Shown: positions 1 to 14,634 of the stretch, piece after piece
How positions within the stretch are numbered: position 1 is the first letter of the stretch
How the letters are laid out: each line of letters begins with the position of its first letter
DNA from: a virus
DNA length: 54,786 bases
Virus record (IMG/VR): IMGVR_UViG_3300021960_000004
Coordinates: 1 to 54,786 of that record
Strand: one strand, 5' to 3'
Program-made: the position numbers and the translations under genes
The notes under the pieces: generated by a model
Seen by the model: the letters and a program-made list of their open reading frames with translations, nothing else
Told to the model about the DNA's origin: nothing
Database searches by the model: none

Positions 1-125
1 CCATCACTCCAGAAAGAGGAAATTCATGGCAATGTGTGCAGGATCTTTGTGGACTACTTGAACCCTGACATGCGAGAAGATCCAAGCTGGGCTTTGCTGG
101 CCTATACGGTAGAGGATCGGGAAGG
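1..125. repeat. Left copy of 125-bp terminal direct repeat
   Basis: Bases 1-125 are identical to bases 54662-54786. An open reading frame runs through the junction without interruption. The simplest reading is a circular assembly cut at an arbitrary point, with an overlap about the length of an assembly k-mer. It could also be a real short terminal repeat, but lying inside a gene argues against a natural packaging end. Confidence 0.95.
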
Positions 126-198
126 GTATCTTGTCCTGCAAGAGGGCTTTGACAATGTGGACAAGCTCGTAATTTTCCTGACAGAGACGATTAATTAG
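1..198 (+). CDS. Hypothetical protein, C-terminal part (gene spans the circular junction)
   Basis: This is the 3' part of the gene that begins at 54473; base 1 is the first base of a proline codon. When the two window ends are joined at the 125-bp repeat, the protein is about 128 aa and ends at TAG 196-198. It is acidic, with no signal peptide or membrane segment. I recognise no family. The methyltransferase start follows 13 bases downstream, so the gene sits in the early plus-strand operon. Confidence 0.8.
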   Translation, partial: PSLQKEEIHGNVCRIFVDYLNPDMREDPSWALLAYTVEDREGYLVLQEGFDNVDKLVIFLTETIN

Positions 199-211
199 AG
201 AGGATAAGACC

Positions 212-1264
212 ATGAACGTGTTAAGTTTATTCGATGGGATGTCATGCGGTCAGATTGCACTTGATCAGCTGGGCATCGAAGTGAAAAACTATTTCGCAGC
301 GGAGATTGATAAGTATGCAATCAAGGTGGCTCAGGCCAACTATCCTGACATGATACACCTAGGCGATGTGCGGCATGTGCAAACATCAGGTGACCACTTG
401 ATTGATGACTTTGAGTGCGGCCATAAGATTGACCTTCTGATTGGTGGGTCTCCGTGCCAAGGCTTCAGCTTTGCAGGTAAGCAACTCAACTTTGATGACC
501 CACGCAGTAAGTTATTCTTTGAATATGTCCGACTGCTCAAGGCACTCAAGCCTAAGTATTTCCTGCTTGAAAATGTAAGGATGAAAAAGGAGAGCATGGA
601 CGTTATCACTGAGATGCTAGGTGTGGAGCCTGTGGCAATCAACAGCAACCTAGTGTCAGCACAGAACAGGCACCGACTGTATTGGACGAACATCCCTATG
701 GATGGCATTCCAGAGGATCGTGGCATTGTGTTGTCTGACATCCTAGAGGATGGGCACACCGACAGAGACAAGTCACACTGTATTGATGCAAACTACTTCA
801 AGGGCGGCAACCTCAAGTCATACTTTGAGAAGCACAGGCGACAGCTAGTGTTCAGTGGTGATGGCCTTGCTCATGTAGGCGATGCTGCCGAATACGATCA
901 CTACAAAAACAGTCAGATCAAAAGGGTGTACCACCCTGAAGGTAAGGCACCAACATTACTTGCATCTGCGGGAGGTAATTCAGAGCCTAAGATATTACAA
1001 AAGGGAAGGGGTTGGAACAAGGGAGGTCTCAAAGCTACAGATGGTAAGACACCTACCCTCAGCACTAGCTCATGGGAACACAACAACCACCTGACATATG
1101 ACGAGGGCATGACATGGCGCAAGCTGACACCCTTAGAATGTGAGAGGTTGCAGACTGTACCAGAGGGATACACTGCACACGTTAGTAATACGCAGCGGTA
1201 CCGTATGCTGGGCAATGGTTGGACAGTAGACGTAATCAAACACATCATGAAAGGAATGGCGTAA
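212..1264 (+). CDS. DNA (cytosine-5) methyltransferase, DNMT3-like
   Basis: The 350-aa protein transfers a methyl group from S-adenosylmethionine to C5 of cytosine in DNA. Motif I (LFDGMSCGQ, residues 6-14) binds the cofactor. Motif IV is GGSPCQGFS with catalytic Cys82, motif VI is ENVR, and motif VIII is QNRHRLYW. The C-terminal LGNGWTVDVI is motif X. The FDG form of motif I and the SAQNRHRLYWTN segment resemble the DNMT3 branch more than classical Dcm. GAGAGGAT lies upstream of the ATG. No restriction endonuclease is adjacent, so it is probably an orphan enzyme that protects phage DNA from host restriction or marks it. The target sequence cannot be read from the protein. Confidence 0.93.
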   Translation: MNVLSLFDGMSCGQIALDQLGIEVKNYFAAEIDKYAIKVAQANYPDMIHLGDVRHVQTSGDHLIDDFECGHKIDLLIGGSPCQGFSFAGKQLNFDDPRSKLFFEYVRLLKALKPKYFLLENVRMKKESMDVITEMLGVEPVAINSNLVSAQNRHRLYWTNIPMDGIPEDRGIVLSDILEDGHTDRDKSHCIDANYFKGGNLKSYFEKHRRQLVFSGDGLAHVGDAAEYDHYKNSQIKRVYHPEGKAPTLLASAGGNSEPKILQKGRGWNKGGLKATDGKTPTLSTSSWEHNNHLTYDEGMTWRKLTPLECERLQTVPEGYTAHVSNTQRYRMLGNGWTVDVIKHIMKGMA

Positions 1265-1419
1265 TGGATAGAGAAGTATTCTTTGATTGGCTTGATGCAA
1301 TGGTGTTGTCAGATGACAGCCGTGGGTTGTGGTGGCAAGTCGCACAGGATGACGGTGACGGGTGCATCACAGTAAAGTTTCACAAGGTAGAAGAGGAAGA
1401 GGAAGAGACAAATGGATAA
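1264..1419 (+). CDS. Small acidic hypothetical protein
   Basis: A 51-aa protein whose ATG overlaps the methyltransferase stop (TAATG), pointing to translational coupling. An upstream in-frame start at 1219 would lie wholly inside the methyltransferase gene and is less likely. The C-terminus is a run of glutamates. No family is recognised. The next gene starts in an overlapping frame at 1412. Confidence 0.6.
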   Translation: MDREVFFDWLDAMVLSDDSRGLWWQVAQDDGDGCITVKFHKVEEEEEETNG

Positions 1420-1585
1420 GCTAGAACTGTACACGAGTGAACTGTTGATGCTCAAGGATCTACTTGAGGGTGACATGGAGCAAACATCATGGGGTGAGGT
1501 TGAGTATGATGACGTTGAGCTCATGCAATACTATCTTGATCGTGCTAAGGTATTGGTCAAAGTTAAGGAGCTAGTTGGATCATGA
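1412..1585 (+). CDS. Small hypothetical protein
   Basis: A 57-aa acidic, probably helical protein from ATG 1412, overlapping the stop of the preceding gene. GGAAGAG precedes the start. Its stop overlaps the ATG of the next gene (ATGA, 1582-1585). The close-packed overlaps before and after it support a real gene. No function can be assigned. Confidence 0.6.
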   Translation: MDKLELYTSELLMLKDLLEGDMEQTSWGEVEYDDVELMQYYLDRAKVLVKVKELVGS

Positions 1586-1833
1586 AAAAGAACTATCGCA
1601 CAGCATATAACCAACTCAAGAAGCTAGGCGTGACAGTCTATGAGGATGACGATGGCTTCCGTATATCAGGGGAGGACAACTATCCAGAGGTGTGGGCCGA
1701 CTACTACTGTGAGTTTGGCGGCACTGTCTTGGATGACTTTGGGGTCAACCACAAGATCAACGCCATCTTAGAAAAGCAAGGACTGTTTGCAGAGTGGGAG
1801 AACACTGGCGTCCTAGGCGTTGCAGAATTATAA
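1582..1833 (+). CDS. Hypothetical protein
   Basis: An 83-aa protein starting in a 4-base ATGA overlap with the previous gene. It is acidic and aromatic-rich with no membrane segment. It belongs to the run of short coupled early genes after the methyltransferase. I do not recognise the family. Confidence 0.65.
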   Translation: MKKNYRTAYNQLKKLGVTVYEDDDGFRISGEDNYPEVWADYYCEFGGTVLDDFGVNHKINAILEKQGLFAEWENTGVLGVAEL

Positions 1834-1851
1834 TCTAAATGGAGAAGACAC

Positions 1852-2130
1852 ATGACTAAGAAGACAATCAAAACAGAACTGACCCGTGATGAAGTACGCA
1901 TACTACTCGAAGTCTACAACTGTATGGACAGCATGGTAGATGACACAATGGAGATGATGGATGTCCGAATGTCACAACTAAGTGACCTGCGAGATAAGGC
2001 GTACACACTGAAACATATGTTTGACTTCCGTCCGACTGTAAATGATGACGGCAACCCTAACCACTGGAAGCCATGCGTATTGCCTGACGATCCTACAGCT
2101 TGGTACTATGACAATGGGGAGACAGAGTAA
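1852..2130 (+). CDS. Hypothetical protein
   Basis: A 92-aa protein preceded by a good ribosome binding site (GGAGAAG). The N-terminal half looks helical and Met-rich; the C-terminal half is Pro- and Trp-containing and acidic. Its TAA stop overlaps the next ATG (TAATG at 2128-2132). No family is recognised. Confidence 0.65.
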   Translation: MTKKTIKTELTRDEVRILLEVYNCMDSMVDDTMEMMDVRMSQLSDLRDKAYTLKHMFDFRPTVNDDGNPNHWKPCVLPDDPTAWYYDNGETE

Positions 2131-2498
2131 TGCGAGTAGAATTGAGATCAGTACTTCACGATGACCTGATGTCAGACTGTGGCAACTGCTACCAAGCGGA
2201 GGTCTACCTAAATGATAGGCCTTTCGCTCACCTACAAAACGATGGCACAGGCGAGGAGACAGACATCAAACCACACCATCTATTCCAAGGGACACGGAAG
2301 CAATGGCAGTACTGGAGAGAGGCCATCAACAAACACCTGTCAGTTACGTCAGAGGAGGCAGTCCTGGACAGCAGCTATGGGTGGGAAGACTCCCTACTAA
2401 GTTGGGCTGATGGTGTGCTAAAAAAGCAACACCCTTGGGTCGCTGCGAGTACGTCCTCTATGGAGCAGAGAGACTTCAAGTTATTCATGTTAAAGTAA
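2130..2498 (+). CDS. Hypothetical protein
   Basis: A 122-aa protein starting in a TAATG overlap with the gene before it. It is rich in Trp, Asp and His, and has no obvious domain, signal or membrane segment. About 60 bases without a gene follow, then two very small membrane-protein genes. Confidence 0.65.
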   Translation: MRVELRSVLHDDLMSDCGNCYQAEVYLNDRPFAHLQNDGTGEETDIKPHHLFQGTRKQWQYWREAINKHLSVTSEEAVLDSSYGWEDSLLSWADGVLKKQHPWVAASTSSMEQRDFKLFMLK

Positions 2499-2559
2499 GA
2501 GTAACACAGGTATAACAGTAGGCTATCATGCTTACTTAAAGTGAAGGGTTAGGTCTTAA

Positions 2560-2643
2560 ATGCCTACATATGAGTTGATAGCAATAGGTACCACAGTAGT
2601 GTTCTGGTGTGTGGTCTACCTAATCTATAAAAAAGATGAATAG
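2560..2643 (+). CDS. Very small membrane protein (27 aa)
   Basis: The ORF encodes 27 residues: five polar residues, one hydrophobic segment of about 17 residues (from Leu6 through Ile22), then YKKDE. The topology is that of a single-pass inner-membrane peptide with a cytoplasmic positive C-terminus. The stop overlaps the start of the next small gene (ATGAATAG, 2636-2643). The upstream AGGG and AGG are weak ribosome sites. Function unknown. Confidence 0.5.
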   Translation: MPTYELIAIGTTVVFWCVVYLIYKKDE

Positions 2644-2752
2644 GGTACTTGAAATACAGAAGGAGGTACCTACGTTAATACTGTTAGTAGTACTGTTAGT
2701 ATTACCCTTGGTATTTATTTCTTTTATAGAAAATAATACTTATAGATACTAA
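2636..2752 (+). CDS. Very small membrane protein (38 aa)
   Basis: ATG 2636 overlaps the end of the previous small gene. The 38-aa product has a polar, charged N-terminus of about 13 residues, then a strongly hydrophobic Leu/Val segment at roughly residues 14-30, and a short polar tail. This predicts one membrane helix. Its second half lies over the inverted repeat at 2679-2770, so the Leu/Val codons (CTG TTA GTA) may owe something to the DNA or RNA structure. AAGGAGG inside the ORF could serve an alternative start, but no standard start codon follows it at a suitable distance. Confidence 0.45.
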   Translation: MNRVLEIQKEVPTLILLVVLLVLPLVFISFIENNTYRY

Positions 2753-2770
2753 CAGTATATACTAATAGTA
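2679..2770 (+). repeat. AT-rich inverted repeat with TACTGTTAGTA arms (copy 1)
   Basis: Arm 1 (2679-2702) has two tandem copies of TACTGTTAGTA. Arm 2 (2746-2770) is its near-exact reverse complement with a one-base insertion and two or three differences. The loop is 43 bases. The RNA could form a stem of about 24 bp just upstream of the gene at 2812. A related inverted repeat with the same core lies in the late-operon leader at 52518-52659. The role is unknown; regulatory RNA, processing site and recombination linker are all possible. Confidence 0.75.
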
Positions 2771-2811
2771 CATCTACTACTGGTCTGCATTTAATTAAAA
2801 GGATAAAAGCA

Positions 2812-2976
2812 ATGGCAGACGATAAGAAAGACGAAGAGTTACCACTAACAGAGTACGATGATGTCACTCATTGGGTGGGTAAGATGGAGAAAGACAATGA
2901 ACAAAAGACTGGTACTTCTGGACAGACACATAGCGAACCTACAAAAGGAAAGGGACGACCTAGAGTGGGAGGGTGA
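2812..2976 (+). CDS. Small charged hypothetical protein
   Basis: A 54-aa hydrophilic protein from ATG 2812 with AAAAGGATAAAAGC upstream, a usable ribosome site. It is acidic at the N-terminus and Lys/Arg/Gly-rich at the C-terminus. It is the first gene after the inverted repeat. Its last 80 bases overlap, in another frame, the gene starting at 2897. Both may be real, since the upstream start has the better ribosome site and the downstream ORF the more protein-like composition. Confidence 0.5.
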   Translation: MADDKKDEELPLTEYDDVTHWVGKMEKDNEQKTGTSGQTHSEPTKGKGRPRVGG

Positions 2977-3064
2977 GTACTCTCGATCAGACTTCCTTCA
3001 AAAACTTATTGACGATGCAATTCAAATGAGAGATAAGGGTGACACTCACTACCCCTTGTTCTAA
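2897..3064 (+). CDS. Small helical hypothetical protein
   Basis: A 55-aa protein from ATG 2897 preceded by GGAGAAAGACA. The sequence looks like a coiled coil (DRHIANLQKERDDLEWE) followed by a second helix. A longer in-frame start at 2858 lacks a ribosome site. It ends just before the tRNA gene. Confidence 0.55.
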   Translation: MNKRLVLLDRHIANLQKERDDLEWEGEYSRSDFLQKLIDDAIQMRDKGDTHYPLF

Positions 3065-3069
3065 AGATA

Positions 3070-3146
3070 CCACCCTTAGCTCAACTGGATAGAGCAAATG
3101 CCTTCTAAGCATTAGGTTGCAGGTTCGAGTCCTGCAGGGTGGGCCA
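3070..3146 (+). tRNA. tRNA-Arg (anticodon TCT)
   Basis: The full cloverleaf can be drawn. The acceptor stem CCACCCT (3070-3076) pairs with AGGGTGG (3136-3142). T8 and A9 are present, and the D stem GCTC pairs with GAGC. The anticodon stem is AATGC/GCATT with loop CTTCTAA, giving anticodon TCT at 3104-3106. The T arm is GCAGG-TTCGAGT-CCTGC, and the discriminator G is followed by an encoded CCA (3144-3146). It reads AGA and AGG codons, which often appear in these phage genes and are usually rare in GC-rich hosts. Confidence 0.97.
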
Positions 3147-3166
3147 AACAAAAAAGGATACACACT

Positions 3167-3379
3167 TTGGAAACACTTGACATCATTCTTCTAGGCTACG
3201 GGGTTATCCTTGCTTACTTGGTTTGGGAGAACATTCAGTTACGAAACAACGTGGAAGAGAATTCTGGATTAATTGACGAGCTAATTGCTAAGCACAATCT
3301 TTTGGGCGATGAATTTGGAGAATTTTTGGACATGATCGAGGACGGTCTAAAAGCAAGGGAGGAGAAGAACAATGGTTAA
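3167..3379 (+). CDS. Small N-terminally anchored membrane protein
   Basis: A 70-aa protein starting at TTG 3167 with AAAAGGAT upstream; no ATG suits the frame. A hydrophobic segment spans roughly residues 5-20, followed by an acidic helical domain with a Lys-rich C-terminus. The next gene overlaps by 8 bases. Single-pass membrane protein of unknown role. Confidence 0.55.
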   Translation: METLDIILLGYGVILAYLVWENIQLRNNVEENSGLIDELIAKHNLLGDEFGEFLDMIEDGLKAREEKNNG

Positions 3380-3554
3380 TACTTGGTTGTTGATATGGTT
3401 TGTCTTTGTACCTGAGTTAGGCATAAAATACTATCACTTAGGTACATACGAGAACGAGACCTTCTGCGGTACTGCTCTCAGAGATGCAGCGGTAATGGTC
3501 AACGATAAGAATGAAACAGTAGAATGTATTGGGATACAGGTAGATGTTAGGTAA
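3372..3554 (+). CDS. Small probable secreted protein
   Basis: A 60-aa protein with a hydrophobic N-terminus (WLLIWFVFV) that could be a signal peptide or membrane anchor. Two cysteines in the remainder (FCG and ECIG) could form a disulfide in the periplasm. It overlaps the genes on both sides. Function unknown. Confidence 0.5.
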   Translation: MVNTWLLIWFVFVPELGIKYYHLGTYENETFCGTALRDAAVMVNDKNETVECIGIQVDVR

Positions 3555-3819
3555 GTACGATAAAGGGGAGTATACCAAAGGTGAGAAGGTTATTAAGAAA
3601 CGTAAGCTTGGTCTGATTTTCTTTAAGCCTAATGGAAGGTCTGCGTACATGATAACTAAAAGGCTACAAATATTGGATGTTCCAAACAATAAAGTTAGTA
3701 GTGATTGGTTTGCTAAGACTTTAAACACTGTAGGCTACCAATCGCAGGTCGAATACTATCAGGACACCTTTGGTTGGAAAGTAGAGGGTAAAATATTGGA
3801 GGCAATAAAGAATGATTGA
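3544..3819 (+). CDS. Hypothetical basic protein
   Basis: A 91-aa Lys-rich soluble protein starting at ATG 3544, overlapping the previous gene by 11 bases and thyX by 8 bases. No known motif is visible. The overlaps suggest one transcript with thyX. Confidence 0.6.
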   Translation: MLGKYDKGEYTKGEKVIKKRKLGLIFFKPNGRSAYMITKRLQILDVPNNKVSSDWFAKTLNTVGYQSQVEYYQDTFGWKVEGKILEAIKND

Positions 3820-4504
3820 AGTAACATATATTGACCATATGGGTACAGACTTGACGGTAGCTAACGCTGCACGGGTATCCTTTGGTAAGGTGAGTGAGAT
3901 GGAGGACGATCCTTGGGGACCACCTAAGCTCAAGGAGAAAGACGATAAGCTGATCCGCTATCTTGCCAAGCACAAGCACATCAGTCCATTCGGTCACTGC
4001 TTTGCTAGCTTTCACATCAAGGCTCCTGTGTTTGTAGCACGGCAGCTAGTTAAGCATAAGTTCTTGAGATGGAACGAAATATCTAGGCGCTATGTGGATG
4101 AAGACCCTGAGATTTATGAACCTGATGTATGGAGAGGGCGTAGTAAAGACAAAAAGCAGGGAAGCTATGGTGATGTCACTGATTACGCAATGAACTTTGT
4201 TTGGTGGGACGATTATAAATTAGGTGACCAGATAGAGTTTTATAAAAAAGGTGTCGTGGCTATGTACAAAAGAATGATAGAGATAGGCATAGCACCGGAG
4301 CAAGCACGTATGGTACTACCACAAAGCACTATGACTGAGTGGTACTGGAGTGGTAGCCTTGATGCCTTCGCTGACATGTGTAACCTACGCTGCAAGTCTG
4401 ACACTCAGGCAGAGACACGGCAGGTAGCACAACAGATTGACCGCAAGATGATTGAGTTATTCCCTGTAGCATGGGACGCACTAACGGAGGATGACGATGA
4501 CTAA
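3812..4504 (+). CDS. thyX: FAD-dependent thymidylate synthase ThyX
   Basis: A 230-aa flavoenzyme that makes dTMP from dUMP using methylenetetrahydrofolate and NADPH. The family signature lies at residues 77-94: RQLVKHK, then WNEISRRY. The usual RHR is KHK here, and the usual Ser before the Asn is replaced by an Arg-Trp pair. Other family features are visible: an N-terminal NAARVSFG segment, HISPFGH, and a C-terminal block around ARMVLPQS. The ATG has GGAGG upstream. It supplies thymidylate for phage replication and works with the RNR and pyrophosphohydrolase encoded later in this operon. Confidence 0.93.
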
Positions 4505-4703
4505 GATGTATGAATTAGAGCCTATGATCTTAGACTGTTGGCGTGTGTGCAATGACCTTGAGGTTGTCTTCAAACAGGTGGGTGACGGTGAACATACTGA
4601 GGATGAACTGATGAACGCCTTGATAGGTATGCAGCAGCTTTACGAGTGGAAGTTTGAACAGCTGTTTAACAAATATGAGGAGACACTCCGTGATAAAGAG
4701 TGA
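4497..4703 (+). CDS. Hypothetical protein
   Basis: ATG 4497 overlaps the thyX stop and sits 6 bases after GGAGG (4486-4490). An ATG at 4491 is too close to that site. The 68-aa product is acidic and helical with Trp and Cys residues. Its end overlaps the next gene. Function unknown. Confidence 0.6.
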
Positions 4704-5001
4704 ATGGAATCGTCTAATAAAAGAACGTGAAGACTTTAAGGAGAGTGTATTGGCAGAACATACATCAGACATCGTAAATGAACCTAAGCACTATGCACGG
4801 TGGGCTATTGAACCCATCACATACATCATGCGTAATGGTTTTGAGTTCTGGCGAGGCAACATCGTTAAGTACGCTAGCCGTGCAGGCTACAAGATGTACG
4901 AGGGTAAGACGCAGGTTGAGAGTGAGATCATTGACTTGGAAAAAGTTATCAGGTACTCACAGATGCGCATCAATCAACTTAATGGCGAGGAGAAACTCTA
5001 G
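4690..5001 (+). CDS. DUF3310 protein (T7 gp1.7-like)
   Basis: Start chosen at GTG 4690, 7 bases after AGGAG (4678-4682), giving about 103 aa. Longer in-frame starts (TTG 4654, ATG 4675) lack a site. The core has VNEPKHY, then [21 protein letters not shown] and a [13 protein letters not shown] helix, the layout of DUF3310. Some members, such as T7 gp1.7, act as nucleotide kinases. It lies between thyX and the replication genes, which fits a role in nucleotide supply. Confidence 0.8.
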
Positions 5002-5045
5002 TGAATATCTTACTATCCATTCTTCTTGTCCTTGTTTTATTCTAG
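5001..5045 (+). CDS. Possible 14-aa hydrophobic peptide
   Basis: A GTG at 5001 overlaps the DUF3310 stop (TAGTG), with AGGAGAAA upstream. It opens a 14-codon frame of almost only Leu, Val and Ile, ended by TAG at 5043-5045, which is also the start of the next ribosome site. It could be a translational coupling leader or a tiny membrane peptide. Composition alone cannot prove it. Confidence 0.25.
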   Translation: MNILLSILLVLVLF

Positions 5046-5053
5046 GAGGCGGT

Positions 5054-5287
5054 ATGTTTACAGTTGAGTTTGAACCGGACGCAGCAATCATTCAAAGCCT
5101 TGATGAAACAGGGAACATGAATGACGTTGAGATGATTATAGCGGAGGAAGGTGTTGTGTATATACGACAGTGGGATGATAGTTTAGAGAAGTACGAGATG
5201 CTTGTCATGACATACCAACAGCTTCTTGATATAATACTTTCTCTAAAGCAGACAGAAGGTCTTTTCCAAATAGTACCAAGAGGATAA
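5054..5287 (+). CDS. Hypothetical protein
   Basis: A 77-aa acidic protein from ATG 5054 preceded by an ideal TAGGAGG. A longer frame extends upstream to 4778 but lies inside the DUF3310 gene in another frame, so the shorter start is right. No motif recognised. It is part of the early operon just before the replication genes. Confidence 0.65.
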   Translation: MFTVEFEPDAAIIQSLDETGNMNDVEMIIAEEGVVYIRQWDDSLEKYEMLVMTYQQLLDIILSLKQTEGLFQIVPRG

Positions 5288-5291
5288 AGAG

Positions 5292-5468
5292 ATGGATAAC
5301 ACAGACACACAACAGTTAGACCACTACATGCGGGAGAATAACCTGTCAAAGGAGGACGTTCTTCTCATAGTTCAACGTCATGTGAATGACTTACAGTTCG
5401 AGAGAGACTTGGACGAAGCTTACAACAAAGACGAGTGGGATGACTGGTCAGAAGGAGACATGGTATGA
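5292..5468 (+). CDS. Small acidic hypothetical protein
   Basis: A 58-aa very acidic, helical protein from ATG 5292 with AGGATAAAG upstream. It ends in the ATGA overlap that starts the primase-helicase gene, so the two are probably translationally coupled. Function unknown. Confidence 0.6.
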   Translation: MDNTDTQQLDHYMRENNLSKEDVLLIVQRHVNDLQFERDLDEAYNKDEWDDWSEGDMV

Positions 5469-7087
5469 TAGCCTCAGAAGAAAAGAAGTTTGATGTGGAA
5501 AGAGTTGCGTGTCCCTACGTGGATTGTGGTAGCTCAGACGGGTTCTACTACAGTTCAGTAACTAAGTCAGGTTTTTGCCACGTGTGCGACAGTAAGACAG
5601 GTAAGCCTGGTAAGTACCCACGCCCTAACTTTAGGAGTGATATTGCTGATTGGGCAGAGGAGGCTTATCCAGTGAACACAATGAAACCACCAGTACACAC
5701 AAGGCAGATAGCTTCAGCAACATTCAACGGCATACGGGGTATTGATCCTGACGTTTGTAAACTCTTTAAGATCCAGCTTCAACTGGACAGTGAGGGTGAC
5801 GAGGTTAGGTACGCATTTAAGTACCCATCAAATGTAAAGTACAGAGGCTTTGAGGAGAAGAAGTTCTGGACTGAGGAGAAGGGTGCCTTACAGGATCTCT
5901 TTGGCCCAGACTTTAACGCTGGCTCTAGTAAACGTCTTTACCTTACAGAAGGTGAGTTTGATGCTGCATCTTTATATCAAGCCCTAGGTAAGAGTTTCCC
6001 AGTTAAGTCGATACCATCTGCCTCACTGTCTGATAAGTTTATCAAGCGTAACTTTGACTACCTCAACTCATTCCAAGAGATTGTCTACGCTGGTGAACAG
6101 GACGATGCAGGTAAGGGTGCAGCGACTAGGCTCTATGAGTTATTCCCTGAGAAGTTTTACTATGTCCCTTTGACTAAGCACAAAGATGCTAATGACTTTA
6201 TACTAGCAGGTGACCAAGACGATCTGAAGTGGGCTGCGGTTAAGCCTCAGCGGTTTTCCCCAGATAACTTCTTTGTGGGTGACGTTGAAGTAGAGAAAGC
6301 TATCAGGACTGAGAACCCCTACGAGTACGTAGCTACTGGTCACACTGCACTAGACGATAAGATCAGAGGGTTAGTGAAGGGTGGTCTCACCTTCATTAAA
6401 GCTTTACGTGGTCAAGGTAAGACTGAGTTGATTAGGTACTTTGAGATAGGGCTCCTAAAGTCAGAGGCTAAGATAGCCTTGCTACACATGGAGGAGATGA
6501 AGTCTACAACGTACCGTGCCATGGCTACGTATGAGCTAGGTTGTAATGTCCGTACAAAGGAAGACGCTGCAGAGAATGGCGTTAGTGAGGACGATGTGGT
6601 CTTGTCTGCTAAGATAGCTGCACGAGATGATCAAACCATTATCTTTGAGATGCAAGCTCACGATGACCCAATGAAGCTTCTTGATTATGTTCGACTGGCT
6701 GCTACGGTTTACGGCGCTAGTTTTATTTTCATAGACCATGTCCAACGCCTAGCCTACCTGTCAAATGCAGGGGTGGAGGGTGCAACCAGTACTCTTACAA
6801 CCTTGGGTGCACGTATGGCTCAGCTTGCTAAGGAACTGAATATAGGTGTGGTCTTTATCTCTCAGGTTAATGACGATGGCCGTACCAAGTATGCTGCCTC
6901 CCTTGAGGAAGAAGCTATCATGTGTATCAAACTCAACCGTGACACTGAAGCAGAGGACGAGTCAGAAAGAAACACTACTTACTTTATTGTTGACAAGAAC
7001 AGACCATTCGCTAAGTTAGGTAATGCAGGGTCCGTCTACTATGATCCCGACACAACACTACTAGAGGAGGTTTCATTCAACGTATGA
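5465..7087 (+). CDS. T7 gp4-like primase-helicase
   Basis: A 540-aa replication protein. The N-terminal zinc ribbon has Cys16, Cys21, Cys38 and Cys41 for template recognition. The TOPRIM primase domain has YLTEGEFDAAS and a later GEQDDAGKG with the metal-binding acidic residues. The C-terminal RecA-type helicase has Walker A (RGQGKT, around residues 315-320), a Walker B-like strand FIFIDHVQRL, FISQVNDDGR, and an arginine near the end (DKNRPF). It should unwind DNA 5' to 3' as a hexamer and prime the lagging strand for the polymerase that follows with a 4-base overlap. Confidence 0.93.
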   Translation: MIASEEKKFDVERVACPYVDCGSSDGFYYSSVTKSGFCHVCDSKTGKPGKYPRPNFRSDIADWAEEAYPVNTMKPPVHTRQIASATFNGIRGIDPDVCKLFKIQLQLDSEGDEVRYAFKYPSNVKYRGFEEKKFWTEEKGALQDLFGPDFNAGSSKRLYLTEGEFDAASLYQALGKSFPVKSIPSASLSDKFIKRNFDYLNSFQEIVYAGEQDDAGKGAATRLYELFPEKFYYVPLTKHKDANDFILAGDQDDLKWAAVKPQRFSPDNFFVGDVEVEKAIRTENPYEYVATGHTALDDKIRGLVKGGLTFIKALRGQGKTELIRYFEIGLLKSEAKIALLHMEEMKSTTYRAMATYELGCNVRTKEDAAENGVSEDDVVLSAKIAARDDQTIIFEMQAHDDPMKLLDYVRLAATVYGASFIFIDHVQRLAYLSNAGVEGATSTLTTLGARMAQLAKELNIGVVFISQVNDDGRTKYAASLEEEAIMCIKLNRDTEAEDESERNTTYFIVDKNRPFAKLGNAGSVYYDPDTTLLEEVSFNV

Positions 7088-9045
7088 GAGTCGTAGTCAG
7101 TGACATAGAAACAGAAGGTCTCAACAACTGCCAAAAGCTTTGGATCTGTGGTGGTCAGGACATTAAGACAGGTGAGGTTACCCGCTTTGATAACTGTCAT
7201 GAAGATCCTGTAGCTAAGGCTGAGGCAATCAAGTGGTACGAGTCTGCTGACCTGATCATTGGTCACAACTTCCTTTCCTTTGACGCTGTGCAGCTTAACA
7301 GTTTACTTAAGCCTAGACTAATTGACCCAAAGAAAATCATAGACACTCTAATCATAAGCAGACTGGTAAACTACGATATACAAATACCTAAGGGCGCTAA
7401 GAATCGTCACAGCTTACAGGCTTGGGGTATCCGCCTAGGCAACTACAAAGGAGAACATAATGACTGGACTAAATTCAGTGAAGAAATGGTTGAGTACTGG
7501 TATCAAGACATCGAGGTTTCACATGCTTTGTACGAACACTTCTCTAGTGTTATTCGGAATCCTGATTGGAGTAAGTCTCTAAGGGCTGAGCATGACCTGC
7601 AGACTGAGTTAGTAAGAACAAAGTACTACGGCTTTGCATTTGATAAGCCTAAGGCAGAGATGCTTCTAAGTTCTATTCAGACTAAGCTTGCTGAGCTAAC
7701 GGATCAGTTTCGGGTAGACTTCACGCCTAAGTTAAACTTGGTAAACACAATTAAGTATCGCCTAAAGGAAGACGGGGAGGAGATGGCTACAGTCAAGAAA
7801 GCCAAGGAACGTTATGCCCTTACTGATCGTGTGGGTGACGACTTGCTCTGCTATGACTGGGTACACTTTAAGCCTTCGTCATCTAAGGATCGTGCTGATG
7901 CGCTGTGGGATGCTGGATGGACTCCAGTTGATAAGAGCAAGACCTTCAACAACTTCAGCCGACTGTCTGTTGGAGATCCTTATGGCAAGACTGTACCTTC
8001 AATGTCTAAGGAGTTCTACAATGAGAAGAAGAAACACTTTGAGAGGTATGGTTGGTCTGTGTCTGAGGATAATCTCACCACCCTGCCTGAGGATGCACCT
8101 GAAGGGGCGAAGACTTTAGCTAAATGGCTCACACTGGAGGGACGTAGAAGCTCACTCGTTGAGTGGTTAGGTCAGGTTGGTACTGACGGTAGGATACATG
8201 GTACCATCAACAACATAGGTGCTTGGACAGGCAGGTGCTCACATAACAACCCTAACACTGCTAACATACCTTCAGTCTTTCATGGAGAACCTAAGACAGC
8301 TGTGGAAGAGGTAAAGAAACAGTACGACTCACACCTTCGTGCTTGCTGGACAACCCCCAGTGGATCTTTCCTAGTAGGTACGGACGCAGACGGTATTCAA
8401 CTACGGGTACTTGCAGATTATTTATGGAGATACTTTGATGCTGACCAGTATGCTAGAGCTATCATGGAGGGTAAGAAGGAAGACGAGACAGACATTCACA
8501 ATGTTAACAAACGTGCACTGGGACTTGACCATGCTACTAGGGATATGGCAAAGACTTTTATCTATGCTTGGTTACTAGGGGCGGGTGTAGCTAAGACCGC
8601 CCAGATACTTAAGGTAAGTCAGCCCAAGGCAGTTGAGGCTAGAGATAACTTCGTTAAGTCTATCGACGGTCTAGCTAAACTGAAGAACAAACTGATACCC
8701 GCAGTGGGTGAGCAGGGATACTTTACTGGGTACGATGGCCGAAAGGTACTTGTACCTTCAACACACAAGGCACTTGCAGGTATGCTGCAGAACGCTGAAA
8801 GTATCTTAATGAAGTACACACTACTACGCTGGACTTCTGAGGCTAGGAAGCTAGGTATAAACTTTAAGCTTGTTGGCTTCATTCATGACGAGTATCAGAC
8901 AGAGGTGATAGGAACAAAGGAAGAAGCAGAAGAACTAGGAAAGCTTCAAGCAGACTGTATGCTTGAGGTAGGAAAAGAACTGGGGTTTAAAATACCTACC
9001 CCTGGATCTTATGATGTAGGAAAAAACTGGCTTGACACCCATTAA
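7084..9045 (+). CDS. Family A DNA polymerase (T7 gp5-like)
   Basis: A 653-aa replicative polymerase. The N-terminal 3'-5' exonuclease has Asp7 and Glu9 (SDIETEG), a GHNFLSFD strand, and YWYQDIEVS. In the polymerase domain, the segment around WTGRCSHNNPN matches the T7 TGR region. Motif A has Asp434 (GTDADGIQLR). Motif B has Lys490 and Tyr494 (AKTFIY). Motif C has Asp602-Glu603 (IHDEYQ). Tyr494 aligns with T7 Tyr526. The gene starts in the last bases of the primase-helicase. I see no zinc-finger insertion of the DnaJ type between exonuclease and polymerase domains. Confidence 0.95.
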   Translation: MRVVVSDIETEGLNNCQKLWICGGQDIKTGEVTRFDNCHEDPVAKAEAIKWYESADLIIGHNFLSFDAVQLNSLLKPRLIDPKKIIDTLIISRLVNYDIQIPKGAKNRHSLQAWGIRLGNYKGEHNDWTKFSEEMVEYWYQDIEVSHALYEHFSSVIRNPDWSKSLRAEHDLQTELVRTKYYGFAFDKPKAEMLLSSIQTKLAELTDQFRVDFTPKLNLVNTIKYRLKEDGEEMATVKKAKERYALTDRVGDDLLCYDWVHFKPSSSKDRADALWDAGWTPVDKSKTFNNFSRLSVGDPYGKTVPSMSKEFYNEKKKHFERYGWSVSEDNLTTLPEDAPEGAKTLAKWLTLEGRRSSLVEWLGQVGTDGRIHGTINNIGAWTGRCSHNNPNTANIPSVFHGEPKTAVEEVKKQYDSHLRACWTTPSGSFLVGTDADGIQLRVLADYLWRYFDADQYARAIMEGKKEDETDIHNVNKRALGLDHATRDMAKTFIYAWLLGAGVAKTAQILKVSQPKAVEARDNFVKSIDGLAKLKNKLIPAVGEQGYFTGYDGRKVLVPSTHKALAGMLQNAESILMKYTLLRWTSEARKLGINFKLVGFIHDEYQTEVIGTKEEAEELGKLQADCMLEVGKELGFKIPTPGSYDVGKNWLDTH

Positions 9046-9061
9046 AGTCCTATGCTAAAAC
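9032..9061 (+). promoter_or_regulatory. Candidate sigma70 promoter for the ssDNA-binding protein
   Basis: TTGACA (9032-9037), an 18-base spacer, then TAAAAC (9056-9061). It overlaps the polymerase stop and lies just ahead of a gene that T7-like phages express heavily. The -10 matches only four of six consensus bases. Confidence 0.35.
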
Positions 9062-9093
9062 GAATCAATATGAAACTCAATGAGGATAACAAC

Positions 9094-9639
9094 ATGCCTA
9101 ACGAATCTAAAACACAAATCCTAGAACTATTCGGTACACTGGAGTGGGCAAAAGTATTTGAACACAATCGAGATCGTGCTGTTTGGAATGAAGAAAAAGA
9201 GGGTGAGTACAAAGTTACTATTATCTTAGACGAGGAGAACACTGAGAAGTTCAAGGCGTCTGGCTGTGGTAAGGTTTTAGTCGCAGTAGATGGAGGTAAT
9301 AAAGTTACCTTTGCTCGTCCACATAAGGGTAAGTTTGAGTGGCAAGGTGGTGCACCCAAAGTTGCCAACATTAAAGGACAACCTTGGGACTTTGAGACTG
9401 ACGGTTACATCGGTAACGGTTCTACTGGTCTCGTTAACGTATCCCTCTTCAATGCTAATGGACGCACAGGTTCACGCCTTGAGGCTGTTCAAGTAGTTGA
9501 CCATGTAGAGTTTGAGTCAGACGGTAATAGTGGACCCTCCTCTACCTTCAGAGACCTATCAAACCTTACGACTAAGACCGACATTAAACCTAAGAAGGCA
9601 GCACCAGTCGCTGTCGAAGACGACGCCATCCCTTTCTAG
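9094..9639 (+). CDS. Single-stranded DNA-binding protein (T7 gp2.5-like)
   Basis: Start chosen at ATG 9094, 6 bases after GAGGAT; an in-frame ATG at 9052 lacks a site. The 181-aa protein has a mixed beta OB-fold-like core with WNEEKEGEYKVTIIL and a GGAPKVANIKGQPW segment. A flexible region follows, then an acidic tail ending EDDAIPF. The acidic tail with a terminal Phe is the mark of phage gp2.5 proteins and docks polymerase and helicase. It coats ssDNA and promotes annealing. Confidence 0.85.
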   Translation: MPNESKTQILELFGTLEWAKVFEHNRDRAVWNEEKEGEYKVTIILDEENTEKFKASGCGKVLVAVDGGNKVTFARPHKGKFEWQGGAPKVANIKGQPWDFETDGYIGNGSTGLVNVSLFNANGRTGSRLEAVQVVDHVEFESDGNSGPSSTFRDLSNLTTKTDIKPKKAAPVAVEDDAIPF

Positions 9640-9656
9640 GTTTACTTTCTTTCTGC

Positions 9657-9714
9657 TGTGTGTGTGTGTGCCAAAGCCCCTTCCCTTAGTTGGGTGGGGG
9701 CAACCAACCCTAAG
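9657..9714 (+). other. TG7 run and stem-loop between ssb-like gene and exonuclease
   Basis: Seven TG dinucleotides (9657-9670) follow the ssDNA-binding protein stop. A stem then forms between CTTAGTTGG (9685-9693) and CCAA plus CTAAG (9704-9714, two-base bulge) around a GGGGG-containing loop. No T-run follows, so it is not a simple intrinsic terminator. It might protect or process the mRNA. Confidence 0.35.
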
Positions 9715-9725
9715 AGGAACATAAG

Positions 9726-10610
9726 ATGAAAACAATAGACACCTTAGTAAGTGACATTGAGCAGACAATCTTCGGCTACAACGGTTGGGACAAAGCTCTT
9801 GGCGACTTCATGGCTAACAACATCTCCACTATGGCAGAACAACGGTTCGCTAAACCACAAGAGCCACGGGGTTACCTATCTCTGTCAGCCCTAGGCACAC
9901 AGTGTGAGCGGAAGTTGTGGTACAAGATCAACAAAACAAACTTAGCTGAGCCTCTTAATGCATCAACACTTCTCAAGTTCTTTTATGGTGACATCATCGA
10001 GGAGTTAGTACTTACGATAGCAGCTGTCTCAGGTCACAGTGTTACTGGTATGCAAGATCGTATGGACGTTCACGGTATTAAGGGACACAGAGACGCTGTC
10101 ATAGACGGTATGACGGTGGACGTTAAGTCAGCTTCACCTTACGCATTTAAGAAGTTCAAGGATGGCAACCTGCGTGATGACGATCCATTCGGTTACATCT
10201 CACAGCTGTCTTCCTACGTCTACGCTGCGAAGGATGACCCCCTTGTCACAAACAAAACCCAGGGCGCATTTTTAGTTATAGATAAAGTTAATGGAAATAT
10301 TTGCTTGGATATTTATGACTTCACGGAGGAGATGAAGGACAAAGAGAAAGAGGTAGCTCACCTAAAGTCTATGGTATCTCAGCAGGAGCCACCTGATAGA
10401 GCCTTCAAACCTGTTCCTCAGTCCCCTAAGAATCCAAAGGGGAACCAGAAGCTTAGCGTGGCCTGTTCCTACTGTGACTTCAAGAAAGAATGCTACCCTG
10501 AGCTTCGCAAGTTTATCTACAGCGACAAGCCCCTGTTCCTAACTAAGGTAGTAAAGAAACCAATGGTTGCAGAAGACTTGGAGTATAGCGGTGAGCTACA
10601 ACAAAACTAG
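9726..10610 (+). CDS. Cas4/RecB-like PD-(D/E)XK exonuclease with Fe-S cluster
   Basis: A 294-aa nuclease. The active site is Asp123 (GHRDAVIDG), then Asp132-Val-Lys134, followed by a QLSSYVYA helix (the QxxxY motif). Cys60 (near GTQCERK) together with Cys247, Cys250 and Cys256 (CSYCDFKKEC) forms the 4Fe-4S signature of Cas4 and AddB nucleases. It takes the place that the gp6 5'-exonuclease holds in T7, so it probably resects DNA for recombination or degrades host DNA. The next gene overlaps by 20 bases. Confidence 0.85.
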   Translation: MKTIDTLVSDIEQTIFGYNGWDKALGDFMANNISTMAEQRFAKPQEPRGYLSLSALGTQCERKLWYKINKTNLAEPLNASTLLKFFYGDIIEELVLTIAAVSGHSVTGMQDRMDVHGIKGHRDAVIDGMTVDVKSASPYAFKKFKDGNLRDDDPFGYISQLSSYVYAAKDDPLVTNKTQGAFLVIDKVNGNICLDIYDFTEEMKDKEKEVAHLKSMVSQQEPPDRAFKPVPQSPKNPKGNQKLSVACSYCDFKKECYPELRKFIYSDKPLFLTKVVKKPMVAEDLEYSGELQQN

Positions 10611-10998
10611 GCGAAGAGCCTTACAAGCAGGTTATCGTTCCGGTTTGGAAGAGGACACTGCGGAGTTCCTTCGCACTAAGAATGTAGAGTTTACATACGA
10701 GAAGGAGAAGATACGTTGGCTAGACATGAAGTACAGAACCTACACTCCCGACTTTGTACTAGCTAACGGCATCATAATAGAAACCAAAGGACGGTTTGTT
10801 TCAAATGACAGACGCAAACACAAGGAAATAAAAGATCAGTACCCAGACTTAGATATAAGGTTCGTCTTTAGTAACAGCAATCAGAAGTTATATAAAGGTG
10901 CGAAGAGTTCTTACGGTGACTGGTGTAAGAAGAACGGCTTCAAGTACGCAGACAAACTAATACCAGACGAATGGTTAGAGGAAATCAAAGATGACTGA
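10591..10998 (+). CDS. T7 endonuclease I-like Holliday junction resolvase
   Basis: Start chosen at GTG 10591, with GGAG upstream and inside the end of the exonuclease gene; the 135-aa product then aligns with T7 gp3 from its N-terminus. Catalytic residues are Glu20 (RSGLEE), Asp54 (YTPDF), Glu64 and Lys66 (ETKG). They correspond to T7 Glu20, Asp55, Glu65 and Lys67. KLYKG, SYGDWC and ADKLIPDEW also match. It resolves branched DNA before packaging and helps break down host DNA. Confidence 0.95.
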   Translation: MSYNKTRRRALQAGYRSGLEEDTAEFLRTKNVEFTYEKEKIRWLDMKYRTYTPDFVLANGIIIETKGRFVSNDRRKHKEIKDQYPDLDIRFVFSNSNQKLYKGAKSSYGDWCKKNGFKYADKLIPDEWLEEIKDD

Positions 10999-11266
10999 AC
11001 CCTTTAGAGGCAGAGTAGAGATACTCCAAGTTATACGTGGCCCTTACGACGACGAGGATGGGCATATATGGAACCTGTGTTTGGCAAGACACTGCTCAAC
11101 TAATGAACAGTTTGAAGAGGAGTACTACTACACGTCAATGAAAGATGCTATGGATGATGTAGACAGACTACACAAGACAGGTCCATTCTTAATTGATGAG
11201 TTAGGTAACACCGAACAAGATCACATGAACAAGATGACTAGGAAGGTTTTAGAGTATGTCGAATAA
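10991..11266 (+). CDS. Hypothetical protein
   Basis: A 91-aa acidic protein, overlapping the endonuclease gene by 8 bases and the phosphoesterase gene by 11. It has Tyr- and Glu-rich stretches and no known motif. The tight overlaps suggest co-translation with its neighbours. Confidence 0.65.
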   Translation: MTEPFRGRVEILQVIRGPYDDEDGHIWNLCLARHCSTNEQFEEEYYYTSMKDAMDDVDRLHKTGPFLIDELGNTEQDHMNKMTRKVLEYVE

Positions 11267-12032
11267 AACAGCAGTCGTATTCAGTTGTGCACATACAGAT
11301 CCAAACATACCTAATGATAGGTTTGATCTACTAGGTGAACTGATCTACGACATTAACCCTAGCTATGTTATCGACCTTGGTGACGGTGCAGACATGAAGT
11401 CACTAAATAGTTTTGACACTAGGTACCCTGAGGCCATCGTGTCACAGAACTATGGTCAGGACATTGAGCATTACAACGATGCAATGGAACGCTTAAGAAA
11501 GAAACCCAGTATAAGGAAATACAAGAAACCCTTTTGGATTGGGTTTGAAGGTAACCACGAAAATAGAATTAAGAAAGCTATCGCTCATGACCCAAGACTT
11601 AAGGGAGACAAATACGGGATATCCTTCGGGCATCTTCAAACGGACCACTGGTTCGACGAGTACCACGAATACCAAAACTCGGCACCAGCAATCGCTGACT
11701 ACGATGGTGTCTCATACGCTCACTTCTTTTCTAGTGGTAACTTTGGGTCAGCTATGTCTGGCATTCACCATGGTTACGGACTACTCCAAAGTAGAAACCA
11801 TTCTTCTACTTGTGGTCATAGTCACAAGCGTTCTATCTATTTCAAGGACTCTGCTCACCCTAACTCGATTATCGGCTTGGTCGCAGGGTGCTTCAAAGGC
11901 GGAGCAGAAGGCTGGGCTGGACAGTCTAATCTAGAGTGGTGGAAAGGTTGCATCATTAAAAGAGAGATAGCCAACGGTGTTTACGAACCAGAGTTTGTAT
12001 CTCTTGATAGGTTGAGAAAAGAATATGGTTGA
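11256..12032 (+). CDS. Calcineurin-like metallophosphoesterase
   Basis: A 258-aa protein with the motif series of the two-metal phosphoesterases: SCAHTDP near the N-terminus, DLGDGAD at about residue 41, GNHENR, and GHSHKR. The spacing fits a full domain. The first motif reads CAHTD where DxH is usual. Substrate unknown; phage members are thought to act on nucleic acid ends or nucleotides. It sits with the recombination enzymes. Confidence 0.85.
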   Translation: MSNKTAVVFSCAHTDPNIPNDRFDLLGELIYDINPSYVIDLGDGADMKSLNSFDTRYPEAIVSQNYGQDIEHYNDAMERLRKKPSIRKYKKPFWIGFEGNHENRIKKAIAHDPRLKGDKYGISFGHLQTDHWFDEYHEYQNSAPAIADYDGVSYAHFFSSGNFGSAMSGIHHGYGLLQSRNHSSTCGHSHKRSIYFKDSAHPNSIIGLVAGCFKGGAEGWAGQSNLEWWKGCIIKREIANGVYEPEFVSLDRLRKEYG

Positions 12033-12056
12033 CCTGAGGCATGTAACCGATATAAC
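12029..12056 (+). promoter_or_regulatory. Sigma70-type promoter ahead of the nucleotide metabolism block
   Basis: TTGACC (12029-12034), a 16-base spacer, then TATAAC (12051-12056); each hexamer is five of six against consensus. It starts at the phosphoesterase stop. The predicted start of transcription (about 12063) leaves only a few bases before ATG 12071, so its main clients may be the genes from 12250 on. Confidence 0.55.
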
Positions 12057-12070
12057 TAGGGGTTCTGTCA

Positions 12071-12238
12071 ATGCGATTTGAAGCTAGACTAATTCTAGAC
12101 GTTGACCCAGAAGCTAACTTCTTAGAGGTTGACTACGGAGAAAACTGCAGAGTAATAGACGAGTTACTGCAGGACTTGGTATACGATACGGATGACATCG
12201 AGGTTGTCCTTTGTGATGTAAGTACATATGATCAGTAA
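12071..12238 (+). CDS. Small acidic hypothetical protein
   Basis: A 55-aa protein from ATG 12071, with AGGGG upstream. It is acidic with alternating hydrophobic residues, suggesting a small beta or alpha/beta fold. No family recognised. It lies between the promoter at 12029 and the MazG-like gene. Confidence 0.6.
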   Translation: MRFEARLILDVDPEANFLEVDYGENCRVIDELLQDLVYDTDDIEVVLCDVSTYDQ

Positions 12239-12249
12239 GGAAATGAAGT

Positions 12250-12723
12250 ATGATAACCCAAGAAGACATTGAAGCTTTTTTACCACCAACACCAGAGGAG
12301 TGCTTAGAAGAGTTCATCTTAATCTTTAAGGCCTCCCTTGACCCCAGACTATGGGTTAACCTTATTAAAGAAGAGTACAATGAACTTGAAGCTGAGAAGG
12401 CTGGAACAGTAGACCACCTCAAAGAGGCAGCAGACTTGATGTATGTCCTAGAAGGGTTCCGATTAGTATCCCCAAACTACTTGGACCTATTGATCTCTGA
12501 CGATGAGCTGGAGGATATAAACAATCTGCTTGAGAGTGCCGATAAGGCAATAGAATCTGCTGAAGGTTTCTACGGACACAACACAGTGTACGATGCATTT
12601 CTTTTAGTACACGATAGTAACATGTCCAAGCTAGACGATGACGATAAGCCAATCTTTAGGTCTGACGGAAAGGTTCTTAAGGGACCAAACTACAGGGCAC
12701 CTAACTTAACATACTTACTTTAA
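12250..12723 (+). CDS. MazG-like nucleotide pyrophosphohydrolase
   Basis: A 157-aa protein. The metal-binding helices appear as KEEYNELEAE and then LKEAADLMYVL, the EExxE...ExxD pattern of all-alpha NTP pyrophosphatases. The C-terminus (HDSNMSKL, then GKVLKGPNYRAP) is typical of phage phosphoribosyl-ATP pyrophosphohydrolase-like proteins. It should hydrolyse (d)NTPs or related nucleotides and sits directly before RNR, thus in nucleotide pool control. Confidence 0.8.
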   Translation: MITQEDIEAFLPPTPEECLEEFILIFKASLDPRLWVNLIKEEYNELEAEKAGTVDHLKEAADLMYVLEGFRLVSPNYLDLLISDDELEDINNLLESADKAIESAEGFYGHNTVYDAFLLVHDSNMSKLDDDDKPIFRSDGKVLKGPNYRAPNLTYLL

Positions 12724-12738
12724 AGGACACAACGCACA

Positions 12739-14634
12739 ATGAGTAACCAATTACCCACCGACTACCAATCGTTTATCCACAAGTCACGGTACGCTAAGTA
12801 CTATGATGGCTCAGGCCGTGAGTCTTGGGACGACACAGTAACCCGCTTCTCTGTCAACATCATTCGTGATCTGGTAGACCCTAACACCAAGTACAAACTC
12901 GAACAAGCTATCCTTGGGTTAGAAATTATGCCATCTATGCGTGGCCTTATGACTGCAGGTCCAGCAGCTGAGCGGGATAACACTTGCATGTACAACTGCA
13001 GCTACCTACCTGTAGACGACCTCAAGTCATTCGACGAGGCTATGTTTATCCTGCTCTGTGGTACTGGTGTTGGCTTTAGTGTAGAGCGGCAGTTCGTCAG
13101 CAAGCTTCCAGAGGTGCCTCAACTCTTCGATAGTGAGACCAACATCGTCGTCAAGGACAGTAAGGAGGGGTGGGCTAAGTCTTTCCGTCAATTGATTGCA
13201 CTCCTATACAGTGGTGAGATCCCTACTTGGGATGTGTCAAAGGTACGACCAGCTGGTGCACCCTTGAAGACCTTTGGTGGTCGGGCGTCAGGTCCAGCAC
13301 CCTTGGTTGATTTGTTTAACTTCACTATCAAAACATTCAAGGATGCTCAAGGACGTAAGCTTTCTTCCGTTGAGTGTCACGATGTTATGTGTAAGATTGG
13401 TGAGGTGGTAGTCGTAGGTGGAGTGCGCCGTAGTGCCATGATCTCACTGTCTAACCTGAGTGATGACCGTATGCGTCACGCTAAGTCTGGTGAGTGGTGG
13501 AAGACTAACCCGCAACGTGCACTCGCAAACAACTCTGTGTCCTACACTGAGAAACCAGACAGTGTGTCTTTCATGAGGGAGTGGATGTCACTAGTTGAGT
13601 CAGGGTCTGGTGAGCGTGGTATCTTCAATAGGCAAGCCTCTAAGAACCAAGCTGCCAAGAACGGACGCCGTGACTCTAACTATGAATTCGGTACAAACCC
13701 TTGTTCTGAAATAATTTTAAGGCCCAATCAGTTTTGTAACTTAACGGAAGTTGTTGTACGTGCGACTGATACCCTAGAGACCTTGTCTGAGAAGGTACGT
13801 CTTGCTACGATACTGGGTACGATCCAGTCTAGCTTTACTAAGTTCCCGTACCTCCGTAAGATCTGGCAGAAGAACACTGAGGAGGAGCGTCTACTTGGTG
13901 TGTCACTGACAGGAATTATGGACAACCCACTAATGACCCTCAAGAATAAAGGACTGGAGAAAACACTTGAGCATCTTAAGTCTATCGCCGTTTCTACTAA
14001 TGCTGAGTGGGCTGAACGCCTTGGTCTGCCTGTCTCTGCTGCTATCACATGTGTTAAACCTTCCGGTACGGTATCACAGCTGGTTGATTCCGCCTCTGGT
14101 ATTCATGCTCGTCACTCACCCTATTACATTCGTACTGTACGTGGTGACAACAAAGATCCTCTAACACAGTTCATGAAGGACCAAGGTATTCCACATGAGC
14201 CTGAGGCATTTAAACCAGATCAGACAACCGTGTTTAGCTTTCCTATGAAGGCTCCGTCTGGTGCTGTGTGTACTGCCGATATGCCTGCCATTGACCAGCT
14301 GGAGATGTGGTTGGCTTATCAAAGGTCATGGTCAGAGCATAAGCCTAGCGTTACTATCAACGTAAAGAATGACGAATGGTTTGAAGTAGGTGCATTTGTG
14401 TACAAGAACTTTGACGAGATGTCAGGTGTGTCATTCCTACCTTACGACGAACACACGTACCAACAGGCTCCTTATCAAGAGTGCGACAAGAAAGCCTATA
14501 AAGAACTGCTAAGTGTGATGCCTAAGTCTATCAACTGGTCTAAGCTATCGGAGTATGAGAGCGAGGATAACACAGCAGGTAGTCAGACCTTAGCTTGTTC
14601 TGGGGATAGCTGCGAGATCGTAGACCTAGTGTAA
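12739..14634 (+). CDS. nrdJ: Adenosylcobalamin-dependent (class II) ribonucleotide reductase
   Basis: A 631-aa monomeric-type RNR that reduces ribonucleoside triphosphates. NPCSEI places the thiyl-radical Cys322 and Glu324. Cys333 (QFCNL) lies 11 residues on, as in the Lactobacillus enzyme, and pairs with Cys83 or Cys87 (NTCMYNC). The C-terminal redox pair is Cys620 and Cys625 (CSGDSC). No R2 subunit or activase is present, consistent with class II. It needs vitamin B12, so the host must make or import cobalamin. The downstream glutaredoxin probably reduces the C-terminal cysteines. Confidence 0.93.
   Translation: MSNQLPTDYQSFIHKSRYAKYYDGSGRESWDDTVTRFSVNIIRDLVDPNTKYKLEQAILGLEIMPSMRGLMTAGPAAERDNTCMYNCSYLPVDDLKSFDEAMFILLCGTGVGFSVERQFVSKLPEVPQLFDSETNIVVKDSKEGWAKSFRQLIALLYSGEIPTWDVSKVRPAGAPLKTFGGRASGPAPLVDLFNFTIKTFKDAQGRKLSSVECHDVMCKIGEVVVVGGVRRSAMISLSNLSDDRMRHAKSGEWWKTNPQRALANNSVSYTEKPDSVSFMREWMSLVESGSGERGIFNRQASKNQAAKNGRRDSNYEFGTNPCSEIILRPNQFCNLTEVVVRATDTLETLSEKVRLATILGTIQSSFTKFPYLRKIWQKNTEEERLLGVSLTGIMDNPLMTLKNKGLEKTLEHLKSIAVSTNAEWAERLGLPVSAAITCVKPSGTVSQLVDSASGIHARHSPYYIRTVRGDNKDPLTQFMKDQGIPHEPEAFKPDQTTVFSFPMKAPSGAVCTADMPAIDQLEMWLAYQRSWSEHKPSVTINVKNDEWFEVGAFVYKNFDEMSGVSFLPYDEHTYQQAPYQECDKKAYKELLSVMPKSINWSKLSEYESEDNTAGSQTLACSGDSCEIVDLV

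Follow-up and report, generated by a model that had tools for sequence, protein, structure and literature searches.

The two long inverted repeats in an early and a late leader of the window, the whole 54,786-nt stretch of phage DNA that was analysed (IMG/VR record IMGVR_UViG_3300021960_000004), are probably operator arrays through which a dimeric regulator would control two operons, one for replication that runs rightward and one for lysis and structural genes that runs leftward. Their repeating unit is an 11-bp mirror-symmetric dyad, TACT-N3-AGTA, which is usually present in two or three tandem copies with a step of 12–13 bp. The dyad occurs above chance, overlaps a predicted promoter at both loci (12/12 consensus matches at the late locus, a weak -10 at the early one) and is conserved at both loci across phages. 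The features of the two leaders are listed in Table 1.

Table 1. Features of the early and late leaders of the window and of associated genes.
Feature	Position	Strand	Remarks
Predicted promoter of the rightward replication operon	2649–2679	+	-35 TTGAAA 2649–2654; weak -10 GTTAAT 2674–2679, overlapping the first dyad
Early promoter-side tandem array, TACTGTTAGTA twice	2679–2689, 2691–2701	+	12-bp step
Early inverted-repeat element	2691–2771	+	sequence, pairing and spacing of the arms agree with those of the late inner repeat
Early distal tandem array, TACTAACAGTA and TACTAATAGTA	2747–2757, 2760–2770	+	13-bp step; inverted relative to the first array
Shared downstream word CTGCATTTA	2785–2793	+	after the array, ahead of the start codon
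First small ORF (54 aa) of the rightward replication operon	2812–2976	+	after the early array
Small protein with AT-hook-like N-terminus	15635–15889	+	present in 8/8 dyad-positive genomes compared
First late gene (85 aa), HIPxSxVFYxR family	52146–52403	-	always beside the array across the whole group
Second late promoter P2, TTGACA-16-TACAAC	52429–52456	-	downstream sequence is CTACTGGTGCATT of the initial annotation
Shared downstream word CTGCATTTA	52461–52469	-	after the late array
Inner inverted repeat of the late leader	52517–52595	-	17 pairs; 34-column loop with 9-bp TACTTATAA repeats
Late promoter-side tandem array, TACTGTTAGTA and TACTACTAGTA	52659–52649, 52646–52636	-	at the predicted late transcription start
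Late promoter P1, TTGACA-16-TATAAT	52663–52690	-	12/12 sigma70 consensus; same position in relatives

Genome setting and relatives

The window, apparently a complete phage genome, carries a direct terminal repeat of 125 nt (1–125 and 54662–54786). Among named phages the closest relative is Roseobacter phage CRP-13 (79% identity across most of 1–20000), which is among the phages described as carrying a Cobavirus-type replication module together with HMO-2011-type structural genes (PMC8528129). Rightward genes extend from about 53271 across the terminal repeat to 15889, and leftward genes from 52418 to 15934. The early repeat separates a block of small early genes from the replication operon. 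The late repeat occupies the divergent region, upstream of the operon for lysis, packaging and structural genes that runs leftward. Relatives were gathered with the polymerase, ThyX and the first late gene as queries, yielding about 240 loci, with many of the ThyX loci belonging to other phage groups; the sequences of named isolates were read directly beside these.

Several other features were recorded. A tRNA-Arg (TCT) gene is found at 3070–3146, shortly downstream of the early array, and arrays of coding repeats are present in large leftward genes (19431–19517 and 26500–34500). The divergent region contains three copies of a GTTTAA-N1-2-TTAAAC dyad (at 52971, 53002 and 53034, 31–32 bp apart), which was detected in 7/7 dyad-positive genomes scanned, was absent from CRP-1, CRP-2 and G006, and probably represents early-promoter operators or origin sites. 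The same region carries three TGTGATCAC palindromes (52709, 53080 and 53122), also seen in CRP-13, G003, CRP-1 and CRP-2. The GC skew is lowest at 52500–53300 and highest near 14 kb, a pattern expected of a bidirectional origin or a transcription switch. A coding explanation for the early left arm, an ORF at 2636–2752 running through it, was rejected: it is found only in L017 (63%) and missing from CRP-13, so it is not a conserved gene.

The dyad and its distribution

The initial annotation had described paired repeats whose arms share one core. This was confirmed, with a true unit smaller than the blocks proposed there, and the early and late loci are 81–84% similar over 25–26 nt. The window contains 11 TACTN3AGTA sites, compared with about 1.2 expected from block shuffling and 2.3 (maximum 7) in 100 Markov sequences, and 8 of the 11 fall inside the two intergenic patches. 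The outer tetranucleotides TACT and AGTA are mostly constant between phages and the central triplet varies (GTT, AAC, AAT, TAT, TAA and others), as would be the case for two half-sites of a dimer; the sites are symmetric, with their centres found in both orientations.

Arrays of TACTN3AGTA with changed central triplets are present at both of the same loci in CRP-13, CRP-9 and many IMG/VR phages. The annotated view that two separate transcription units have one common leader architecture is upheld. Exact sites number 5–11 per genome in eight dyad-positive complete genomes (1.1–1.5 expected), and the whole genomes of CRP-1, CRP-2 and G006 contain 0–1, the chance level. For CRP-207, CRP-603 and HMO-2011 the count covers the two end regions only and gives 0–1 per region. 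These three phages carry other dyad-like palindromic repeats in the homologous late leader, such as CACTTAAGTG in HMO-2011 (regions L251 9150–9700 for HMO-2011, L253 9340–9900 for CRP-603 and L005 9400–10000 for CRP-207). They hint at a group-wide design with lineage-specific operator sites.

The annotated late repeat (52518–52659) is a real inverted repeat, with the inverted pairs 52518–52555/52558–52595 and 52518–52541/52636–52659, but the counterpart of the early element is its inner part (52517–52595) only, the outer part being an array of its own that places two dyads at the promoter. The inner repeat contains partly degenerate dyads and has a total length of 78–80 nt in relatives. Both leaders had further been said to continue through CTACTGGT followed by GCATT. 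This succession is present in the window at 2777–2791 (plus strand) and 52429–52417 (minus strand), but the early copy is not kept in relatives, so that CTACTGGT was rejected as part of the shared element; the late copy directly follows the -10 hexamer of P2. The better shared word is CTGCATTTA, which the window contains only twice (0.7 expected) and whose kept form, TGCATTTA, follows the arrays in the CRP-13/L017/L025/L030 clade and is missing after those of CRP-9 and G002–G004.

Association of the dyads with promoters

For the analysis of promoters, about two dozen late loci were aligned, using the first dyad as an anchor. The late sigma70 promoters of relatives mostly show 9–12 of 12 matches to the consensus, and the first late dyad of every phage examined starts -4 to +4 nt relative to where its assigned -10 hexamer ends. 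In the window it lies within 4 nt of the -10 box and therefore covers the predicted start site. A further dyad is placed between the -35 and -10 elements of the late promoter in CRP-9, L199 and L201, and a dyad of the form TACTTTAAGTA takes the corresponding position in P2 in L042, L076, L192 and L196. The L210–L217 clade has lone dyads after the -10 box or in its place, with neither an inverted partner nor a long hairpin. Mainly because of this locking of dyads to promoters and the lone promoter dyads lacking a hairpin, DNA operators are the preferred reading of the arrays.

At the early locus, a -35 element (TTGAAA/TTGACA) is kept in relatives, preceding the first dyad by a similar distance, but the -10 element is weak, for which reason the early promoter is designated as predicted; it was absent from the output of a consensus promoter scan of the window. 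The weak early -10 counts against operators, as does the failure of both candidate regulators to match a DNA-binding fold (see below). So do a preference for native arms and compensatory changes in the inner stem (see below), neither of which plain operators would need.

According to the proposed mechanism, a dimeric DNA-binding protein, probably encoded by the phage, would recognise the 11-bp dyad. Two, sometimes three, tandem dyads would overlap the -10/start region of a promoter read by the host sigma70, with a second array further down the leader, and the bound protein would block RNA polymerase while binding cooperatively or looping one array to the other. The replication operon (rightward from 2812) and the operon for lysis, packaging and structural genes (leftward from 52403) would thus be timed together, and the early block, which reaches from the divergent region to 2640 and has no promoter dyads, would be expressed first. 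The regulator protein, its action by repression rather than activation, the looping and the timing are all what we infer from the arrangement of sites.

RNA folding and covariation

The initial annotation had offered an RNA switch, a processing or stability element and a recombination linker as explanations for the repeats. A structured RNA leader, in which a long AU-rich hairpin in both mRNAs would control their stability (by 5'-end protection or RNase III cleavage) or translation, is unlikely, albeit the strongest of the alternatives. Folding, as proposed in the annotation, yielded a 25-bp stem for the early leader (-37.1 kcal/mol, z -4.35, 0/200 shuffles as low) and a moderate deviation from shuffles for the late leader (z -2.85). 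A covariance model built from the inner late element matched the early element of the window with 42 bits (E 1.2e-4), compared with 26.8 bits for a separately built sequence-only model, and that of CRP-13 at E 1e-4. Across 46 sources its matches fall almost only in the two leaders. At E-values up to 10, no match was obtained in the sequence searched from CRP-1, CRP-2, CRP-4, CRP-6 and G006, or in that from CRP-207, CRP-603 and HMO-2011.

Compensatory changes, which the annotation had named as a further check, were found in the inner late stem but not in the outer one. In an alignment of late leaders from the window's clade (A5), 98.5% of the cells of the inner pairing are paired, and two pairs are changed on both sides (GC to AU in L178/L183, AU to GC in L187), compared with a mean of 0.4 in shuffles, although these amount to only about two independent events. 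In the outer pairing (52518 with 52659) compensatory changes are absent, and the paired fraction does not exceed that of shuffles (78.9% versus 79.3%); a linker base in the predicted outer stem is G, A or T among the near-identical window, L173 and L172, so that the pair is broken and left uncompensated. An RNAalifold alignment of the early leader (A4) was poorly aligned and given no weight. When arms were swapped between phages, native pairs were better both in duplex energy (p 0.004 early, <5e-5 late) and in their central triplets (p 0.003 early, 0.04 late), in permutations that ignore kinship. Where inverted repeats are imperfect, template switching brings their arms into agreement even if selection plays no part. 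The stem signals fit a selected stem, but would also fit symmetric operators kept alike by template switching.

Further observations weigh against a structured leader as the primary function. The L210–L217 clade retains its promoter dyads although it has no hairpin, and the short repeating dyad is locked to -10 boxes. Neither leader matches an Rfam family at gathering scores, as would also be the case for an undescribed RNA; over gathering scores and loose E-values together, Rfam returned only a tRNA elsewhere and, in the leaders, sub-threshold matches to animal miRNAs. No simple terminator was found near the late leader. An RNA function is most plausible in the inner late repeat and the early element that corresponds to it, where it may form a possible second layer.

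Such a combination, with a regulator on the DNA dyads and an additional role of the transcribed repeat as an RNA hairpin, would account for the DNA features and the arm co-variation holding at the same loci. It needs two mechanisms, each read from sequence, and appears improbable. We are comparably doubtful that a single phage product recognises the arrays in both forms, as operators in the DNA and as hairpins in the RNA of the leaders, or that an RNA switch with alternative pairings, of the promoter-side arm or the middle arm with the distal arm, coordinates both operons. An RNA switch is not the best explanation of promoter-locked dyads, of lone dyads without a hairpin and of an uncompensated outer late pairing. 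The recombination linker gained no support.

It is highly improbable that the arrays are replication-origin sites (iterons) or mark a transcription-primed origin beside the divergent region. The skew minimum near the late array, the AT-rich repeats and the one primase, polymerase and SSB set common to the dyad-positive genomes would agree with such a role, but the early array lies about 4.7 kb away around the circle, the arrays are promoter-locked rather than grouped at one origin, the GTTTAA-N2-TTAAAC and TGTGATCAC dyads fill the divergent region better, and CRP-4 and CRP-6 have related replication genes but no arrays.

Candidate regulators

If the arrays are operators, their binding protein is more likely to be encoded by the phage than by the host, because CRP-1, CRP-2 and CRP-4 share the host FZCC0023 with CRP-9 and CRP-13, yet are devoid of arrays; a host-encoded regulator is disfavoured on the same grounds. 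Two small phage proteins, singled out by position and phyletic pattern, serve as leads only, given that the second of them could just as well be inherited together with the replication module that these phages share. The 85-aa late protein is a candidate for either the regulator or a regulated gene, and its gene adjoins the late region across the whole group, also where the dyads differ. Its structural model (pLDDT 86.5) had no match among solved structures. A scan of bacterial genomes for this protein returned six contigs from metagenome-assembled genomes, one of them 60% identical, which look like misbinned phage contigs.

The presence of the AT-hook-like protein parallels that of the dyads in the genomes and phage records compared. 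Among 50,697 named phage records it was found only in CRP-9 and CRP-13, the named isolates with arrays, and it has relatives at 33 IMG/VR loci. The AT-hook match is sub-threshold, and only the C-terminal part was modelled well. For both proteins, searches gave no Pfam family at the cut-off, nothing usable in PHROGs or among solved structures, no significant Foldseek match and no match to a DNA-binding fold.

Relation to known systems and significance

In the lambda OL/OR and P22 Arc operators, dyads overlap strong sigma70 promoters, with several sites per promoter. The arrays described here likewise place several dyads at each sigma70 promoter, but their repressor is only predicted, and lysogeny is not demonstrated in CRP-9, CRP-13 or the window. 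The stoperators of Cluster A mycobacteriophages are 13-bp, asymmetric and oriented with transcription, whereas the present dyads are symmetric and located at promoters. Common to both are short repeated phage sites implicated in transcription control (as cited in PMC4351075, PMC3203893). Cluster O mycobacteriophages (Corndog) carry a 17-bp repeat, TGTTCGG-N3-CCGAACA, in more than 30 scattered copies, including within genes (PMC4351075). It too is a dyad with a variable 3-nt centre that is repeated in a phage genome and has no known function or binder, but here a small number of copies lies at two promoters, arranged in tandem and as inverted pairs and built from other half-sites. In Cluster K mycobacteriophages, the 13-bp SAS word of the ESAS/SAS system is found at 11–19 sites tied to translation starts (PMC3203893). 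The ESAS resembles the present leaders in that an imperfect inverted-repeat pair with a spacer is followed by a short shared word before the start codons of unrelated genes; in contrast to SAS, CTGCATTTA has two sites here, and it is with promoters that the repeats are associated. Of the described elements, those of Clusters O and K come closest, but they differ from the present arrays in sequence and lack their locking to promoters.

The statement in the initial annotation that no such element has been described agrees with the literature searched, in which neither the motif nor the regulation of these phages was found. A word search of two papers on the HMO-2011-type group returned no mention of promoters, repressors or intergenic elements. 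Phage operator arrays are a known kind of element, and most likely it is this instance and its predicted regulator that are new. Phages of the HMO-2011 type are described as both dominant and widespread in the ocean (PMC9038755). Should the arrays be operators, they would provide a first defined handle on the timing of replication and late gene expression in these phages, as well as a bait for the regulator.
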